From positions 310,001 through 374,000 of the forward strand of contig NZ_JAGQCE010000001.1 in NCBI RefSeq assembly GCF_024345995.1: a DNA stretch of 64,000 nt. Reading direction: 5' to 3'. This DNA comes from Synechococcus sp. Cruz-7E5 (GTDB taxonomy: Bacteria > Cyanobacteriota > Cyanobacteriia > PCC-6307 > Cyanobiaceae). This document shows, piece after piece, positions 3,302 through 50,446 of this stretch. The number at the start of each line of letters is the position of its first letter. Within the stretch, counting starts at the first letter, position 1. Below the pieces are notes generated by a model. That model did no database searches and had not been told where the DNA came from. It saw only the letters and a program-made list of their open reading frames with translations. The position numbers and the translations under genes are program-made.

Positions 3302-4699
3302 TTGACAACCCCAGCCGACTCCACCGCTGCCGCCAGCTCCGCTGCCGGAGACCAGTCGCGGAGCTGGCGGCCTGGGATGCCCTGGATGCCGGCCGCCCTG
3401 GTGCTGGCCGGCGGTCTGCTTCTGGGCGACAGCCTGCACGGCAGTGTTTCCGGTGCCGTGGTGGTTGCCGCGGCGGCTGGGGGCCTGTGGTGGCTCAGCC
3501 GTGGCAAGGCCACGATCCAACCCAGGCTTCCCTCCAGCTGGAGCGGCTGGATCGAGCGCTGCGACGGGCTGCTGAATCAGTTTGAGCAGCTCCAGCCCAC
3601 GCAGAACGATCCGGCGGCCGCCGCCGAACAGGAGAGCCGGCGGCTGCAGCTGCAGCAGCTGCGCGAACGTCAGCCGCGACAGCGGCTGCAGGTGGGTCTG
3701 GCCGGGGTCTCTCTGCCGCCACAGAGCCTGCAGCCTGAGCTGATCCGTGCACTCAAGGCCCCCCTGCCCCTCTGCCTGCACTGGGGCCATCCACTGCCGA
3801 GCCACAGCCCCGACTGGAGCTGGCCCCTGCTGTTCCAGCAGTGCGACCTGCTGCTCATTCACCTGGAGACCCCCCTTAGAGCGGCGGATCTGCGCTGGCT
3901 CGAATCCCTGCCCAGGGGCCAGGCCGTGTTCTTGCTGGTGGCGCGCCCCGGCCCAGGACCACAGCCGGATCTCGAGCAGGAGTTGCGCGCCCAGCTGCCC
4001 GCGACACTCGCCAATCAGGTCATCCTCTGGAGCGGCGAGGAGAACCAACTCAGCCGTGCTCTTGAACCCTGCAGCCGGATGCTGCGCGCCAGCGGCAGGG
4101 CCATGTTGCTGCAGACCGAACTGCGCTGCCTCGAGAGCCTGCACGGCGACTGGCAAGCCAGGCTGGAAGTTCTACGCCGGGGGCGTCTCGATGGCCTGGT
4201 GAGACGCACCCAGTGGCTGGTGGCCGGCGGGGTGTTCGCGGCCCCCATGCCCAGCGTCGATGTGCTGGTGCTGGCGGTGGCCAATGGACTGATGCTCAAG
4301 GAAATGGCCGAGCTCTGGGATTGCCCCTGGCAACTGGCTCAGTTGCGCGAGGCCGCGACCGAGCTGGCCAAGGCGGCCCTGGCCCTGGGAGTGACGGAGT
4401 GGACCAGCCAGGCCTTGCTCTCGGCCATGCGCCTGGAGGGCACCACCTGGCTGGTGGGGGGGGCGCTGCAGGCCCTTAGCGCCGCCTATCTCACCCGTGT
4501 GGTGGCCCATGCCATGGCCGACGTGCTCGCCCTCTCCTGCGGTGTGCCCGAAATGGATCTGCAGGTTCTGCGGCAGCAGGCCCCCCTGCTGGTGGCCAGG
4601 GCCGCGGAAGCTGAGCGGCTCGACTGGATGGGGTTCCTCAGCCAGGGGCAGACCTGGTGGCGCAGCCAGGCGAGCCGGGGACTGGAAGCAGCAGGCTGA
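3302..4699 (+). CDS. DUF697/YcjF-like membrane protein with a degenerate GTPase-like domain
   Basis: 465 residues, TTG start at 3302. Two N-terminal hydrophobic segments (about 29-43 and 48-65) predict membrane anchoring. Residues about 129-225 follow the outline of an Era-like GTPase (strand LQVGLAGV, later CDLLLIHLETPLRAADLRWL), but the P-loop position reads GVSLPPQSLQPEL, without the GxxxxGK[ST] motif. The C-terminal third (about 300-450) has alternating hydrophobic helices typical of DUF697 (PSVDVLVLAVANGLMLKEMA; LGVTEWTSQALLSA). Role unknown. The family assignment rests on pattern recall, not on a search. Confidence 0.7.
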   Translation: MTTPADSTAAASSAAGDQSRSWRPGMPWMPAALVLAGGLLLGDSLHGSVSGAVVVAAAAGGLWWLSRGKATIQPRLPSSWSGWIERCDGLLNQFEQLQPTQNDPAAAAEQESRRLQLQQLRERQPRQRLQVGLAGVSLPPQSLQPELIRALKAPLPLCLHWGHPLPSHSPDWSWPLLFQQCDLLLIHLETPLRAADLRWLESLPRGQAVFLLVARPGPGPQPDLEQELRAQLPATLANQVILWSGEENQLSRALEPCSRMLRASGRAMLLQTELRCLESLHGDWQARLEVLRRGRLDGLVRRTQWLVAGGVFAAPMPSVDVLVLAVANGLMLKEMAELWDCPWQLAQLREAATELAKAALALGVTEWTSQALLSAMRLEGTTWLVGGALQALSAAYLTRVVAHAMADVLALSCGVPEMDLQVLRQQAPLLVARAAEAERLDWMGFLSQGQTWWRSQASRGLEAAG

Positions 4700-28288: not shown

Positions 28289-28362
28289 TGGCTCGGGGGA
28301 GACTTGAACTCCCGACCTTGGGGTTATGAATCCCACGCTCTAACCAGCTGAGCTACCGAGCC
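28289..28362 (-). tRNA. trnM-CAT: tRNA-Met (CAT), elongator type
   Basis: 74 nt. The 7-bp acceptor stem is GGCTCGG / CCGAGCC with discriminator A; D-arm GCTCAGCTGGTTAGAGC; anticodon loop TTCATAA, anticodon CAT complementary to 28326-28328; T-arm GGGAGTTCAAGTCTCCC. CCA is not encoded. The acceptor and D-loop match elongator rather than initiator tRNA-Met. The last anticodon-stem pair is an A-C mismatch. A tRNA-Ile (lysidine, CAT) is an alternative but less likely. Confidence 0.93.
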
Positions 28363-44610: not shown

Positions 44611-44731
44611 CGGGATCGGAGCGCTTTGGACGTTGAGCAAACCCTAGATGCAAAGGGGCGTTACATCTGAAGACGTCCTCCGGCAAGGGGGTTCCCGGAT
44701 CGATAAAGTGATCTGGCGCCTGGTGTCCTCG

Positions 44732-45226
44732 ATGAGCGTCGTTCGGGATCTGATCCTCCAAGCCGATGATCAGCTGCGGTATCCCAGCGGCGGAGAGCTC
44801 CGCTCGATGGCGCAGTACCTCTCTGGCGGTCCCCAGCGCATTCGCGTGGCCAGGGCCTTGACGGAGAACGAGAAAAAGATTGTCGACGAGGCCGCGCGCC
44901 TCCTTTTCTCCCGCAAGCCCGAGTACGTGGCCCAGGGAGGCAATGCCTACGGCCAGAAGCAGCGGGCCCAGTGCCTGCGTGATTTCAGCTGGTATCTGCG
45001 CCTGGTCACCTACGGCGTACTGGCTGGTAGCACCGAGAAGATCCAGGAGATCGGCCTCAACGGGGCCCGTGAGATGTACAACAGCCTCGGTGTGCCCATG
45101 GCCGGCATGGTCGAGAGCATGCGAGCCTTGAAGGAAGCTTCCCTGGCCCTGCTCGGCACCGATGACGCCGCCAGCGCTTCCCCTTACTTCGACTACCTGA
45201 TCCAGGGTATGCAGACCCCTCTCTGA
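44732..45226 (+). CDS. apcD: allophycocyanin alpha-B subunit
   Basis: 164 residues from ATG 44732; an open frame further upstream adds non-conserved residues. Phycobiliprotein of the phycobilisome core that passes energy to the photosystems, in several cyanobacteria mainly to photosystem I. Bilin-binding Cys81 lies in [27 protein letters not shown] at 71-75 and [22 protein letters not shown] near the C-terminus. Its presence shows the organism has phycobilisomes. A terminator-like element follows. Confidence 0.97.
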
Positions 45227-45253: not shown

Positions 45254-46312
45254 CAAGGGCTTTCCGACGCCCGACTAAAACGTTCAAGGTCAGTCAGTCG
45301 ATTTGGCCTGACTTCTTAATGATGGGCACCCATTCACCCCAGGGGATGCAGTCACCCTTGGGGATACAGGTCATAGCCCCTCATTCATGGAGTGCGATCG
45401 GGCTGTGCGAGATCCACCAGTCATGCCAGGAGTCTCACCATGGTCTAAGCATGAGTCTTGATCTTGGGCTCTTATGAGACGCCAGGGATTGGCTTCAGCG
45501 CCCTGCTGATGTCAGCCCCAGGAGATCGAACATCACAACCAGCCCCTGCCGACCCTCCCGCAAACCCTCATCGCTCCATTGAGAACTATCTAGGTCGTCT
45601 CAGCATTGACCAGAACCAAGCCCCAGAGCGGGACGCATACAAGATCATCACGACTGGTCCAACAGGATGGACCTGCCGCCAGGAGCGTCCTCTGAACGGC
45701 AACCGCTTAACCAGACCCCGCAGCCAAAGCAATTTTCAGCGGGGGAGCAGGAGGTCACTCATGAAATTCATCCGTGTCGCAATTCAAGACCTATTCTGCG
45801 TCCTGAACTGGACAAACAAGTCCATACCGAGACCAAGGACTGGTCTGATCCTGCTTCTCACTCGAGATCATCCAGAAGGAGGCTGAGCTCGGGCTTGGCT
45901 CGTCTCGAAAGGCGTGATTTCAGCATCGCCCCAGGAAGCAGGGCACTGTTCATGCAGCCAGAATCGATGGCGTACCTGTGTCTACAGCAGGTACGCAGAA
46001 AGATTGAAGCTGGCTATGACTGGCTTTTCAGCAGTTCCACAGGCCCTGGACTTCGTGTCCAAGCGCAGCTGGACAGGCACTGCTGCCGAAAAGAAAAGAA
46101 CACCCCGCCCAAGCGCCTGATGCCCTGGTGGCGCTCAGGAGGAGATTGAGCAACCACAAAACAGAATGCGATCGAGCGATCACCAAGCCGAAGAGCGGAA
46201 TCCTCGATCTCGCCAACACTCCTGGAAGCAGCTCGCATTTCTCATCCGAGACGATTACAGAGACTCATATAGAGTCTTAGCTGAGATGCTCGCGAGAGCT
46301 TTGGCGCCCCGT
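45227..46312. other. 1.1-kb gene-poor stretch, composition shifted
   Basis: No convincing gene between apcD and the J-domain protein gene. The base composition is visibly less GC-rich and the codon pattern of the open frames (45458-45886, 45667-46149 on +) lacks the GC3 bias of real genes here; neither has a recognisable domain or Shine-Dalgarno. Several hairpins occur: ATGGG-CA-CCCAT at 45322-45333; CCCCA...TGGGG with inner GGG/CCC at 45337-45363; a perfect 8-bp stem CGTACCTG/CAGGTACG with 9-nt loop at 45971-45995; AGACTC-ATATA-GAGTCT at 46261-46277. It may be decayed genes, a regulatory region or an RNA locus. Confidence 0.55.
45971..45995. repeat. perfect 8-bp inverted repeat in the gene-poor stretch
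   Basis: CGTACCTG (45971-45978), loop TGTCTACAG, CAGGTACG (45988-45995). No T-run on either side. It is the strongest hairpin in the 45.2-46.3 kb region. Confidence 0.7.
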
Positions 46313-47359
46313 TCAGGCCGGCCGGCGGTAGAGCTCCTTGAGCAATTGATAGGCCTCATTGAGGCGGCGCATCGCGTCGGCGCTGCCTCCTGAATCGGGG
46401 TGGTGGCTCATGGCCTGCTCGCGGTAGGCCTCACGGATCTGGTTGAGACTGAGCTGGTGGCCCGGGGCCGTCGGCAGGGCCAGCACCTTCAACGCGCCAT
46501 GCAACGTCATCGTGTGCTCCAGGCTCTGGAAGGAAGTTCCCTGACGTCGACGGCGGAAGCGATGCACGAAGCGACGGATCAGGGTGGGGATCCGCAACGT
46601 GAGTGTGCCGGTGCTGAAGGGATCCTCAAGCAAGCCAGCGGCCACGATCACCCGGTTGAACCTGGGCGGTCCAGGCGACCACCCACTCACGAAGCCACTG
46701 ATCCACTGTTCCATCAAGGTCCAGGTGAACGGCCTCCCCTCCGATTGATCCGACTGAGCCCAGATATCGCGGGCCAGCCAGAGCATGGCCGCCTCCAACA
46801 CCGCCTCGTTTGCGGCCGTGCCGTAGAGGCTGAGCCAATGCTCATCAACAGCAACCAACGCCTGATCCAGTTCAGGAGCATCCACTGAGGGCAGCGGTTC
46901 TCGGGCAGTGGCAGGCGGTGGATGCAGGCTGCGTCTCAGCCTCGCCGACGACTGACGCACGAAGCCGGGCAGATCAATGCCGGCCGAACCCGCGACGTCA
47001 CGGGGCTGCTTGGGCAGCGCGCGACTGGGAGATCTGGCCAACAGCTGGAGTGAGGGCTGATCTGAAAACTGAGGCTCTCCATCCCCTGCATCAAGTGTGA
47101 GCAGCTCGGCCGCCTGCTCGGTGACCAGCACCAGGGCCCGGCAGCCATCCAGCTCCTCTTCAACCCCGGCCTCATCCTCCTCTCTCTCCTCCTCCAGAGC
47201 GTCGGCGTTGGGGAAGAGATCGTCCAGCAGGCGCTCAAGCAGAGCCCCGCGGCTGCGGTGACCCAGCTGTCTGCACAGCTCATCGATCTGCTCCACCTGG
47301 GCGACGGGGAGGATCAGCTGAATTCTCTGGCGATCCGCCTTCGTGTCGTCGGGGGGCAC
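46313..47359 (-). CDS. protein with N-terminal ribbon-helix-helix-like and C-terminal J domains
   Basis: 348 residues, GTG start at 47357-47359. Residues about 11-49 (RIQLILPVAQVEQIDELCRQ then SRGALLERLLDDLF) fit a strand-helix-helix DNA-binding unit of the ribbon-helix-helix type. An acidic stretch (about 54-71) and a middle domain (about 155-260, with LDQALVAVDEHWLSLYGTAA) follow. The C-terminal 60 residues are a J domain: ALKVLALP, then SLNQIREAYREQAMSHHPDS with HPD at 320-322, and ADAMRRLNEAYQLLKELY. J domains call Hsp70 (DnaK) to a target. No Gly/Phe region or zinc fingers. Target unknown. Confidence 0.8.
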   Translation of the reverse strand: MPPDDTKADRQRIQLILPVAQVEQIDELCRQLGHRSRGALLERLLDDLFPNADALEEEREEDEAGVEEELDGCRALVLVTEQAAELLTLDAGDGEPQFSDQPSLQLLARSPSRALPKQPRDVAGSAGIDLPGFVRQSSARLRRSLHPPPATAREPLPSVDAPELDQALVAVDEHWLSLYGTAANEAVLEAAMLWLARDIWAQSDQSEGRPFTWTLMEQWISGFVSGWSPGPPRFNRVIVAAGLLEDPFSTGTLTLRIPTLIRRFVHRFRRRRQGTSFQSLEHTMTLHGALKVLALPTAPGHQLSLNQIREAYREQAMSHHPDSGGSADAMRRLNEAYQLLKELYRRPA

Positions 47360-47379: not shown

Positions 47380-49116
47380 CTAACGGCTCATCAACTGCCT
47401 GAGAAAGCGTTGCTGGACCTTGGCGGCCTCGTTGTAGCGATTCCGCAGCGTCTGAGTCTCCTGGGGGGAGGCCGGAGTGGATGTGCCCATGGGCACCTCC
47501 GCCACGGTGGATGAGCCTGCAGGCGTTTGGTTCAGCAGCCTCAGCGGTGGCAGCGGCGGCAACCAGGCAGGCACAATCGCGGGCCGCGGCAGCGGTGGGG
47601 GCGGTGTGGGCCGGGCGCTGGCGGGCTTGGCAGGTCGACGGACAGGAGCAGTCGGAGCGGGGGTGATGGTCTGGGCAGGGCGGGCTGCGGCGGCTGGAGC
47701 CGCAGGCCTCTGACCGCCAGCGACCGCCGGCGGGGCCGCCGCTGGAGTGGTCTTGCGCTTGGCTGCTGCTGCCGCCTCGGCAGCAGCAGCTCGGGCGATC
47801 TCAACCTGGCGTTCCCGCTCGCGCAGCTGGGCGAGCTGATAGGCAGGCACGACGCTGAGCAGATGACCCGGGGTGGCATCAGCCGGGTAGACCATGCTCA
47901 CCTTGACGCGGTTGTTGACACCGGGGCGAAGGTTCAACGAACTCAGGGAGAGGCTTTCACCGGAGCGCATGCCCACATGAACTTCGCGATAGCCCTCGTC
48001 GGTTTCGATCCCGATCGATCCGCGAAACGCGGTGAACTGACGACCATTGGCTGTGGGATGGCTGAAAACCAGGTCATGGAAGCCTGAGCCCTTCAGATTC
48101 ATCTCGACATCGAAGCGCACGCCGTATGTGCCCACGTTGTCGAGAGAGGAATCGACCATGCGGCTGGCCAGGGGATTCACCTGGATATCCCTGGTGCCGA
48201 AATGGTGGCGATTGGTGCTGGTAAAGGGCACATGCAGAGGGCCCTGGTTGAGATCGTGGTTGATGCTGGCCTGGAAGGCATCGCCGAGGGCCACCCCACC
48301 GACCCTGGAAAACACCTGGCGATTCTGGATCTTGGGGAGCATGCTCAGATAGATCCGGCCTGGAGCCAGTACACCCTGGTCGAGAACAGCCAACAGATCG
48401 GAGTCGGTACGTGGATCCTCAGCGGCCACAACCGCCATCTGGAAAGGACCATCACTGCGGCCGCTGAGCAGGCCGTTGGCAATGCCACGGGCGGGAAGCC
48501 GGGTGTGGAACAGAACGGCCCGGCTGTTGGCTGGAATCGTGAATCGTTCGGGCAGCTTGGGATCAAGCTGATTGCGCAGCATGATCACAGCTGTGGCATC
48601 GCCAGGCCCTGTATTCCAGGGCCTCGGACCCAGGGGCTTGACCCCCATCAGGTGATTCGCCAGATAGGGCGCCTCGAAACTGTTGCGCACAGCGCCACGG
48701 TCGAAGCGGAGCGTGACCGGCCTGGAGCCGGGATTCATCACGATCGTGGCCAGGGTGAGCTGCCCACGCACCAGGCCGTAGCCGAGGCGGGTGGCATCTT
48801 CGGGGTAATACTTGTGATGCATGTGCAACCCGAATTCACCGTTGAAAGTGAATTCGGTGTTGCTGAGTCTCTGACCGGTTTCCCTGGCCACTGCTGATCC
48901 GGGGGCCGTGTTCACCAGGATGCCCGGGCCGAACACCTCTTCCGGCTGGTTGGAGTGCAGCACCGGTACGGCGTTGAAACGCCCCTGCAGAGGGCGCGCT
49001 GCCTGCCCTGCCATCAGCTGCACGTATGAGGCCCTAGCAGCAGGTGCCTCCAGAACCGCGCCGGCCCCGGACAGGGTGGCTATCGCAGCGAGACCAATGG
49101 GACCAAATCTTCTCAC
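47380..49116 (-). CDS. exported DUF3370 protein
   Basis: 578 residues from GTG 49114-49116, which opens a signal peptide (RRFGPIGLAAIATLSGAG, cleavage near ARAS). The large beta-rich middle part (SYVQLMAGQAARPLQGRFNA ... GIETDEGYREVHVGMRSGES) matches the cyanobacterial DUF3370 family, found outside the cytoplasm. After residue about 440 comes an Ala-rich helix (EIARAAAAEAAAAAKRK), then a Pro/Ala-rich linker and a short tail that is not part of the family. Function unknown. The open frame upstream of the chosen start to 49290 looks non-coding. Confidence 0.82.
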   Translation of the reverse strand: MRRFGPIGLAAIATLSGAGAVLEAPAARASYVQLMAGQAARPLQGRFNAVPVLHSNQPEEVFGPGILVNTAPGSAVARETGQRLSNTEFTFNGEFGLHMHHKYYPEDATRLGYGLVRGQLTLATIVMNPGSRPVTLRFDRGAVRNSFEAPYLANHLMGVKPLGPRPWNTGPGDATAVIMLRNQLDPKLPERFTIPANSRAVLFHTRLPARGIANGLLSGRSDGPFQMAVVAAEDPRTDSDLLAVLDQGVLAPGRIYLSMLPKIQNRQVFSRVGGVALGDAFQASINHDLNQGPLHVPFTSTNRHHFGTRDIQVNPLASRMVDSSLDNVGTYGVRFDVEMNLKGSGFHDLVFSHPTANGRQFTAFRGSIGIETDEGYREVHVGMRSGESLSLSSLNLRPGVNNRVKVSMVYPADATPGHLLSVVPAYQLAQLRERERQVEIARAAAAEAAAAAKRKTTPAAAPPAVAGGQRPAAPAAAARPAQTITPAPTAPVRRPAKPASARPTPPPPLPRPAIVPAWLPPLPPLRLLNQTPAGSSTVAEVPMGTSTPASPQETQTLRNRYNEAAKVQQRFLRQLMSR

Positions 49117-49374
49117 TCTGATTCTCTGCTGGGACGGTGTTTCGGTTTTGCGGTGGCATCTTCCGCAGCCGCTGGGCCAGGACCCTTGACTGGGGCGAGG
49201 TCTCGCAGGCACCTGCTCCGTGGCCCCATCGAGGAGGAGACGGCGCATATGGGGTGGACCGCTCGCTAGAACCGTCCTTACACGTGACATTTTCTCATGT
49301 TTCCTCCCCTGCCCTGCTTTGGTGGTTCAGGCTGCGACCCCGAAACCAGCCGCCGTCAGCATCAGGAGCGCAAG

Positions 49375-49491
49375 ATGCGCATGCTCACCTACTGGCGGGA
49401 CGGGGTCGAGCGGCAACTGGCGGCGGTGAATGCCGCGATCAGCACGCTGGAGAAACAGATCGCCCGCGATGCATCCCCGGATCAGGGCTGA
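49375..49491 (+). CDS. possible 38-codon small protein
   Basis: ATG at 49375 has an AGGAG six bases upstream (AGGAGCGCAAG before the ATG), one of the clearest Shine-Dalgarno sites in the window. It encodes MRMLTYWRDGVERQLAAVNA and a further 18 residues, an amphipathic helix with a Leu/Ile heptad (LAAVNAAISTLEKQIA). It ends 53 bp inside the 3' end of the convergent sigma-factor gene. Short helical proteins of this kind exist in picocyanobacteria, but I cannot name it. Confidence 0.45.
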   Translation: MRMLTYWRDGVERQLAAVNAAISTLEKQIARDASPDQG

Positions 49492-50242
49492 AGCTCAGGC
49501 TCTCCCCTTCCATCCGTTGCCTCAAGGTATCCAGCGCTCGAGCGAGCAAGCGATGCACCGTCATCGGGCTCACCTGCATCTTGCGGGCCGTGCCCCTGAG
49601 GCTCTGGCCCGCAAGCACCACCTCCTGGACGGCGGTGCGTTGGCGCAGCTCCAACTGGGCCAGCAGCGCCATGATCCGATCACCAGCGTCCCCTTCCCCG
49701 GGACCTTCCTCCGTTTCAGGCTCGGTGGCGGCGATCCGCTCCTCCTCCCCGTCCAGGCTGGTGAGTTTTCCCAGCTGGCGAAGTTGCTCGAAGCGCTGCC
49801 ACTGGGCCTCACTCAAGCCCAGCAGCCGCCTCAGGCTGGAGTTGGCCAGGGGCTCCGTGCGGCGGCTGCCTTCGGCGCTTCCGCCGGCCTGGTTCTGCTG
49901 CAGCCGGCGCAGGCGGTCCTCCAGCTCCCGCTGTCGCCGGGGGAGCCTGATCACAGGCGCCTGATCACGTAGGTAGTGCAGGATCGCCCCGCGGATGTGA
50001 TGGCGGGCAAAGGCCTCGAACGGGGTGCCCTGATCGCTCTGGAACAACTCGGCTGCCCTGAGCAGGCCCAGCAGGCCCACCTGAGTGAGATCGTCGCGGC
50101 CCTCGCGGCACAGGGAGCTGTAGTGATGGGCGATCGGTCGCACCAGTTCCAGGTGCCTGGCCACTCGGTCGTTGCGCTGGCGCAGACGCCGGCTCAAGCC
50201 AGAGCGGCTGGGGCGGGATTGAACAAGGGATGCGCTGGTCAT
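49439..50242 (-). CDS. RNA polymerase sigma factor, group 3 type
   Basis: 267 residues from ATG 50240-50242; the frame upstream is not conserved. Region 2: HLELVRPIAHHYSSLCREG then DDLTQVGLLGLLRAAELF and FEAFARHHIRGAILHYLRDQ. Region 4: LRQRTAVQEVVLAGQSLRGT with a helix-turn-helix ARKMQVSPMTVHRLLARAL. No region 1.2 or N-terminal extension, and a SigF/SigB-like region 2, so group 3 rather than SigA-like. In cyanobacteria such factors serve stress or surface-structure genes; the regulon is unknown. Confidence 0.88.
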   Translation of the reverse strand: MTSASLVQSRPSRSGLSRRLRQRNDRVARHLELVRPIAHHYSSLCREGRDDLTQVGLLGLLRAAELFQSDQGTPFEAFARHHIRGAILHYLRDQAPVIRLPRRQRELEDRLRRLQQNQAGGSAEGSRRTEPLANSSLRRLLGLSEAQWQRFEQLRQLGKLTSLDGEEERIAATEPETEEGPGEGDAGDRIMALLAQLELRQRTAVQEVVLAGQSLRGTARKMQVSPMTVHRLLARALDTLRQRMEGESLSFSPDPGMHRGRSVSPAC

Positions 50243-50446
50243 CGGAATCGAGAAAGGTGGATGTAGTTGGAGTTGGAGCCAGATCAAGGAGCCACGACCT
50301 CGGGTCGCTGCCCCTTTCCAGATACGGACCAGCCAGCAGGTCTCGGCAACCGTGAAACCACGGAATGGCCCGTTCGGTGGGTTCATGCCGTGTTGATCCG
50401 ATCCGTCCCGAGCCGATTCGCTCGAGCAAGCTTTCGATCGCAGGTC

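Follow-up and report, generated by a model that had tools for sequence, protein, structure and literature searches.

Does a cyanobacterial protein that joins a ribbon-helix-helix (RHH) segment to a J domain act on DNA and, if so, at which site? The question is raised by a gene at 46313..47359 (minus strand, GTG start, 348 amino acids; hereafter RHH-J) in a 64,000-nucleotide stretch of the Synechococcus sp. Cruz-7E5 genome, which we call the window. The initial annotation, made from the letters of the window and a list of its open reading frames, proposed that such a protein could bring DnaK to a DNA-bound complex, for example in replication or repressor control, as DnaJ does for plasmid initiators, and pointed to the gene-poor DNA next to the gene as a place to look for binding. 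In this study, we describe the domains, distribution, and surroundings of RHH-J. Two features are new relative to that annotation: a middle domain in the protein and a conserved dyad in the gene-poor DNA beside its gene.

Domain architecture of RHH-J

In an hmmscan search against Pfam-A, both domains of the proposed fusion exceeded their cut-offs. RHH_1 scored 25.1 bits (cut-off 20.5) over residues 12–46 (47222..47326, minus strand), and DnaJ scored 29.5 bits (cut-off 27.8) over residues 303–345, within a J domain that spans residues 286–345 (46325..46504, minus strand). The same search, extended to an E-value of 10, gave no domain besides these two. A search of 60 relatives yielded 27 loci with a full or near-full RHH-J, and the window together with 24 of the 26 other loci (the near-duplicates L002 and L007 were left out) was used for a 25-sequence alignment. 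The HPD motif of the J domain (46394–46402, minus strand), which had been described as intact, is kept in 25/25 aligned members. In the RHH segment, R12, L28, R35, R37, G38, and L45 are fully conserved. At E ≤ 1, DnaJ was matched in all 25 members and RHH_1 in 22 of them. Position 16, commonly D or E across the family alignment, corresponds to a residue that usually faces the DNA in RHH proteins, which counts against DNA binding by RHH-J. The fusion first described in the window is thus a real, family-wide architecture, and it would fit the predicted role in delivering DnaK to DNA. No direct support was obtained for a parallel to plasmid initiators or repressor control, as the locus is chromosomal, syntenic, and opposite dnaN.

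The AlphaFold2 model of full-length RHH-J, based on the 25 sequences, had a mean pLDDT of 68.3 and a pTM of 0.39. Its RHH part contains helices 19–32 and 37–48 at the places expected for an RHH unit; residues 11–17 were not assigned a strand in this monomer model, and the block of residues 11–50 has pLDDT values of 62–73. A low-confidence linker (residues 51–126) connects the RHH part to a helical middle region, and the J part consists of helices 286–292, 305–319, and 327–345. Among solved J domains, the J part is best matched by 2guz_B (VIA Z 10.0, rmsd 1.8 over 63 residues), and it also matches the DnaK-bound J domain 5nro_B (VIA Z 7.1, rmsd 2.5 over 57 residues).

The middle region, at about residues 153–280 (46520..46903, minus strand), is predicted to form a separate five-helix domain whose fold was not recognized. 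Modeled alone with AlphaFold2 (47 sequences), it reached a mean pLDDT of 88.4 and a pTM of 0.85. The region is strongly conserved, with W175, Y179, W194, W200, F211, W213, and LEDPF at 244–248 invariant in the 25 sequences. Foldseek searches of the middle domain against PDB and BFVD returned nothing at E ≤ 0.001, its best VIA Z was only 3.5, and its sole match to PDB sequences had an E-value of 1.3; this lack of a fold match does not show that the fold is new.

Distribution of RHH-J

When 388 genomes of the class were searched with a profile, full-length RHH-J was detected in 63 of the 64 genomes of the window's own family, which we call Cyanobiaceae after the names of its loci, and in none of the 324 other cyanobacteria. 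The best profile E-value in these 324 genomes was 1.4e-10, and the matches listed fall in the J part. Among the best 80 of 376 loci, the named organisms with the closest versions of this locus are Synechococcus sp. J7-Johnson (97% protein identity) and Synechococcus sp. 1G10 (94%). Phage records contained no full copy of RHH-J, only J-domain matches (in 17). Short ORFs of 64–125 amino acids that resemble the RHH part of RHH-J were seen in several family genomes (e.g., G394:C1:986093 and G232:C1:1346052). A literature search for the combination of RHH and J domains in cyanobacteria found nothing related, judging by title.

A conserved dyad beside RHH-J

The gene neighborhood was compared in the best 80 of 376 confirmed loci. 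The recurrent gene order is SpoIID, Ap4A phosphorylase, sigma factor, DUF3370, RHH-J, a gap, phycobilisome protein, rlmD, and pheT. In the window, a DUF3370 gene (47380..49290, minus strand) lies directly upstream of RHH-J and is preceded by a sigma-70-type factor gene (49439..50386, minus strand), while a phycobilisome protein gene (44648..45226, plus strand) converges on RHH-J from the far side of the gap. The sole tRNA in the window is a tRNA-Met at 28289–28362.

Comparison of 38 gaps downstream of RHH-J, one from the window and 37 from among the 80 loci, revealed one recurring dyad. In the window it occupies 45970..45996 in the gene-poor DNA, 317 bp past the RHH-J stop, with the layout GCGTACCTG-N9-CAGGTACGC and the complete sequence GCGTACCTG-TGTCTACAG-CAGGTACGC; the number of sites within three mismatches of its 23-bp core expected from 100 shuffles of the window was 0. 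The earlier suggestion that the gene-poor neighboring region matters is therefore strongly supported by a conserved dyad located there.

A wider tally covered 113 distinct family members, with identical proteins counted once. Their reading frames were found by two motifs, one of which is HPD, so that the tally says nothing on HPD conservation. CTG-N9-CAG was sought within 1.7 kb on the 3′ side of the gene, the most symmetric candidate was taken, and a loose-pattern filter was applied; arm positions 1 and 7–9 are set by this search pattern, and their invariance is not evidence. On the 3′ side of RHH-J, 94 members have a canonical dyad, and 12 have a high-light (HL) Prochlorococcus type, GTACTG-N9-CAGTAC as seen in an alignment of 12 loci, with L052 counted among these despite its degenerate left arm. 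As for the remaining seven, the sequence after the gene is 716 nt or shorter in six, and L074 has a copy with three mismatches. When only members with at least 900 nt downstream are considered, the dyad is present in 106/107, or in 107/107 if L074 is included; two of these 107 dyads (L052 and L074) are degenerate. Canonical dyads begin 194 to 1113 nt past the RHH-J stop (median 401). The dyad was also seen without the CTG-N9-CAG step, both in the comparison of 38 gaps, which was done first, and in the 12-locus alignment of the HL type.

RHH_1 is mostly a domain of regulators, and RHH-J is downstream of the DUF3370 and sigma genes, on their strand, in most of the best 80 of 376 loci (same-strand DUF3370 upstream in 70/80 and the sigma gene in 68/80, where some loci end too soon to tell), as would be expected if it were an ordinary transcription regulator of its own operon or of genes elsewhere and the dyad belonged to something else. 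However, both upstream genes are missing beside RHH-J in several Prochlorococcus, and seven Prochlorococcus loci (L120, L122, L127, L129, L130, L133, and L137) keep RHH-J without either of them; therefore, RHH-J is not tied to the DUF3370 and sigma genes. In addition, no recurring inverted repeat was found upstream of RHH-J in the nine Prochlorococcus loci scanned, and the dyad lies on the 3′ side of RHH-J in all 29 genomes with a hit in the search described below. We consider an ordinary regulatory role unlikely.

Symmetry of the dyad and its probable mode of recognition

Across 67 distinct canonical sites, arm positions 2, 5, and 6 agree between the two arms in 171 of 201 cells, whereas 2000 shuffles averaged 134 such cells and never exceeded 149; the test is generous, however, because kinship and the selection of sites by symmetry both inflate agreement. 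The spacer is partly symmetric: T is the commonest base at position 2 (38/67) and C at its partner position 8 (36/67), while at 38 of 71 sites the bases at the two ends of the spacer are complementary. No RHH residues were seen by eye to track the arm sequence, and the same RHH strand occurs with GCG or GAG arms among members, which counts against recognition of the dyad by RHH-J.

An RNA hairpin would also have inverted symmetry; it might act as a bidirectional terminator where host genes converge and at the ends of phage operons. The window strand at the dyad folds well as RNA (−28.9 kcal/mol, z −5.5, none of 200 shuffles as good), convergent genes flank the dyad both here and at many related loci, and its copies in viral contigs lie near terminase or thyX. 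However, in a hand count of asymmetric arm cells at the 67 sites, 25/32 were true mismatches in RNA and 7/32 were G-U pairs, which favors recognition as double-stranded DNA over an RNA hairpin. The arm sequence itself is conserved beyond what pairing would demand, the dyad occurs in about one copy per genome, and no T run stands beside it in the window. An Rfam search near the locus gave nothing, with one match at E 0.35 that fell far below its cut-off. An origin of the dyad as an RNA element appears quite improbable.

The dyad and the gene are not inseparable in every genome. The one family genome without full-length RHH-J (G323) is of the HL Prochlorococcus type and retains a broken remnant: at this locus (L259, G323:C1:877500-884500), most of RHH-J is gone, and the HL-type dyad is retained. 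This case argues against a strict dependence between dyad and RHH-J, or marks a recent loss. Two genomes, G016 (99% estimated completeness) and G033 (95%), have neither RHH-J nor the dyad pattern that was searched, which did not cover HL-type arms. Since rlmD is also missing from both, the whole region may be gone.

Copy number and chromosomal position

At two or fewer mismatches, the dyad was found in 29 of 40 family genomes, each of which has one hit beside RHH-J, on its 3′ side. The 40 genomes have 7 other hits at this threshold, spread over 5 genomes; the reversed control had 6. Multiple copies like those of matS were therefore not found in these 40 genomes: one dyad lies beside the gene, and other hits are at the control level. 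Most of the 11 genomes that gave no hit are Prochlorococcus in which the arms differ; among the 11, G075, G134, G212, and the HL strain G025 have a variant dyad beside RHH-J, as do G311 and G385. At one or fewer mismatches, the dyad is present in 27/64 family genomes and 1/324 others. In the Prochlorococcus-like genome G075, a second dyad was observed about 425 kb from RHH-J (L260, G075:C1:756000-764000).

With dnaN serving as a proxy for the origin, the distance from RHH-J to dnaN is 0.33–0.50 of the chromosome, with a median of 0.48, and is at least 0.45 in 29 of 32 single-contig genomes; these were taken regardless of closure, and G144, G191, G311, G376, and G385 were left out. The change point of TA skew falls no more than about 20 kb from the locus in five of six genomes and 40 kb off in G089. 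GC skew, whose change points were 17–95 kb away from the dyad, was rejected as a terminus locator. Because the locus lies opposite dnaN and near the TA-skew change point, we took it as the replication terminus region. Literature searches found no work on a palindrome at the Prochlorococcus replication terminus, and a search on picocyanobacteria and J-domain gave no text with 'replication terminus'.

Copies of the dyad in viral and mobile DNA

An exact match to the dyad pattern was found in at least 120 IMG/VR stretches, compared with 6 for the reversed pattern. Arms of the low-light Prochlorococcus type were not enriched in viral contigs (8 against 9 for the control), and the one HL-type pattern searched there was found in none. 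Eighty of the at least 120 stretches were analyzed. They include relatives of T7-like cyanopodoviruses, with 33 loci in one terminase cluster (query 62% identical to Synechococcus phage P60), and relatives of cyanosiphoviruses, with 14 loci (query 42% identical to KBS-S-2A). In these 80 stretches, the dyad is often close to terminase or thyX, and viral spacers vary widely. By eye, the dyads of these uncultivated cyanophage-like contigs (L269–L348) are often flanked by TGTCCA or CCAAAC motifs. Among cyanophage isolates, no dyad was found in the whole genomes of Syn5, KBS-S-2A, and MED4-184 or in parts of P60, S-CBP42, S-CBP4, and SS120-1. The viral carriers show that an adjacent RHH-J gene is not required for use of the dyad, a point against a dedicated role of RHH-J.

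A second copy of the dyad is also present in the window's own assembly, at 3306–3332 of a 10.4-kb contig (L258, G000:C20). This contig, which resembles a mobile element or a phage satellite, has one gene of phage-capsid type and also encodes a sigma region 2 protein and a DUF3854 protein with a helicase-like match. It had no near match in a plasmid collection.

The dyad as a possible recombination site

A site that occurs once per chromosome, opposite dnaN, and has palindromic arms around a short, partly symmetric spacer could be a dif-like site at which a conserved tyrosine recombinase of about 390 amino acids resolves chromosome dimers; RHH-J would then be an accessory factor or an unrelated neighbor. 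PF00589 is found in 40/40 family genomes, six of which have just one match, and a divergent tyrosine recombinase of about 390–450 amino acids recurs in Cyanobiaceae. The viral contigs with the dyad mostly lack an integrase, as PF00589 was matched in only 1 of 29 longer contigs (19–87 kb, which may be fragments). A regular-expression search for integrases in the 80 viral stretches found none but had no positive control, and the PF00589 result is the one on which we rely. The contig with a capsid-type gene in the window's assembly carries the dyad in the manner of mobile elements that exploit dif. On the other hand, recombinase matches at E ≤ 1e-96 were obtained for G016 and for 13 of the 23 non-family genomes searched, all of which lack the dyad at the thresholds used. 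No duplicated dyad was seen to flank an insertion in any of the 38 gaps scanned downstream of RHH-J, the arms and spacer of the dyad depart from the known dif consensus, and the widely differing viral spacers would hinder recombination with the host site. In three loci (L419, L421, and L423), the tyrosine recombinase gene was seen to adjoin a gene for a conserved P-loop protein, which by eye resembles cobalamin adenosyltransferase. The available text of Kono 2011 (PMC3025954) reports XerCD in cyanobacteria and a failure of dif prediction in 5/5 of them, and that of a later genome paper (PMC6416890) states that no dif sites are predicted in cyanobacteria. Since the recombinases are thus reported and their site is not predicted, a dif-like role of the dyad is a serious rival of, or complement to, recognition by RHH-J, even though we rate its chances well below even.

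Discussion

The reading that we prefer, with a probability of roughly 0.4, is that RHH dimers bind the terminus dyad and bring DnaK there, so that RHH-J would be a protein dedicated to the Cyanobiaceae chromosome terminus. Binding of the dyad, recruitment of DnaK to it, and the function of the resulting complex are what we infer from the domains, the coupling of gene and site, and their position. The steps may be pictured as follows. RHH dimers, probably two on the two half-sites, would bind the dyad, and the middle helical domain may hold the complex together or contact a partner. The C-terminal J domain would recruit and activate DnaK at the dyad. DnaK might then remodel whatever has assembled there as replication ends, with a recombinase, a translocase, or a replication-termination complex as candidates, and the whole may serve termination, dimer resolution, or terminus organization.

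A broader proposal is more tentative: an undescribed terminus system of Cyanobiaceae, consisting of a unique dyad opposite the origin and RHH-J loading DnaK there, with many uncultivated cyanophages carrying the dyad to exploit the same host factor. The dyad in phage-like contigs points to such a shared host factor. With a defined site and a protein that is a candidate to bind it, chromosome termination and dimer resolution become directly testable in the Prochlorococcus and marine Synechococcus lineage, and RHH-J and its dyad may be a missing piece in the finishing or separation of picocyanobacterial chromosomes. If the proposal is correct, a DNA-bound J protein at the chromosome terminus would represent a new use of the DnaK system.

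Comparison with known systems

Several known systems share part of this arrangement. In CbpA, as in RHH-J, a J domain is joined to DNA-binding ability; to our knowledge, neither CbpA nor any other DNA-binding J protein has an RHH module or a dedicated terminus site, unlike RHH-J. Tus acts at several non-palindromic, polar Ter sites, whereas the dyad described here is single and palindromic. For one cyanobacterial genome, the available text of its description reports no ter-like sequences or tus-like genes (PMC6416890). In the dif/Xer system, too, each chromosome has a single dyad-like site in its terminus region, and mobile elements carry copies of it, but the adjacent conserved gene here is RHH-J and not a recombinase.

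CdbA of Myxococcus is an RHH protein of chromosome organization whose depletion acts via PilZ-DnaK chaperones (PMC10313047). There, the RHH protein and the DnaK-type chaperones are separate proteins, and the available part of that paper mentions no J domain in CdbA. The closest analogue of RHH-J in anatomy and place is MatP, the Ter organizer of E. coli. According to the available text on MatP (PMC12756933), it too combines an RHH unit with a further helical domain, a bundle, and has its sites in the terminus region; matS is present in more than 20 copies in Ter, whereas one dyad lies beside RHH-J, and MatP ends in a C-terminal coiled coil where RHH-J has a J domain. If our proposal holds, RHH-J and its dyad would fill the place of the missing dif, MatP, and Tus in cyanobacteria.
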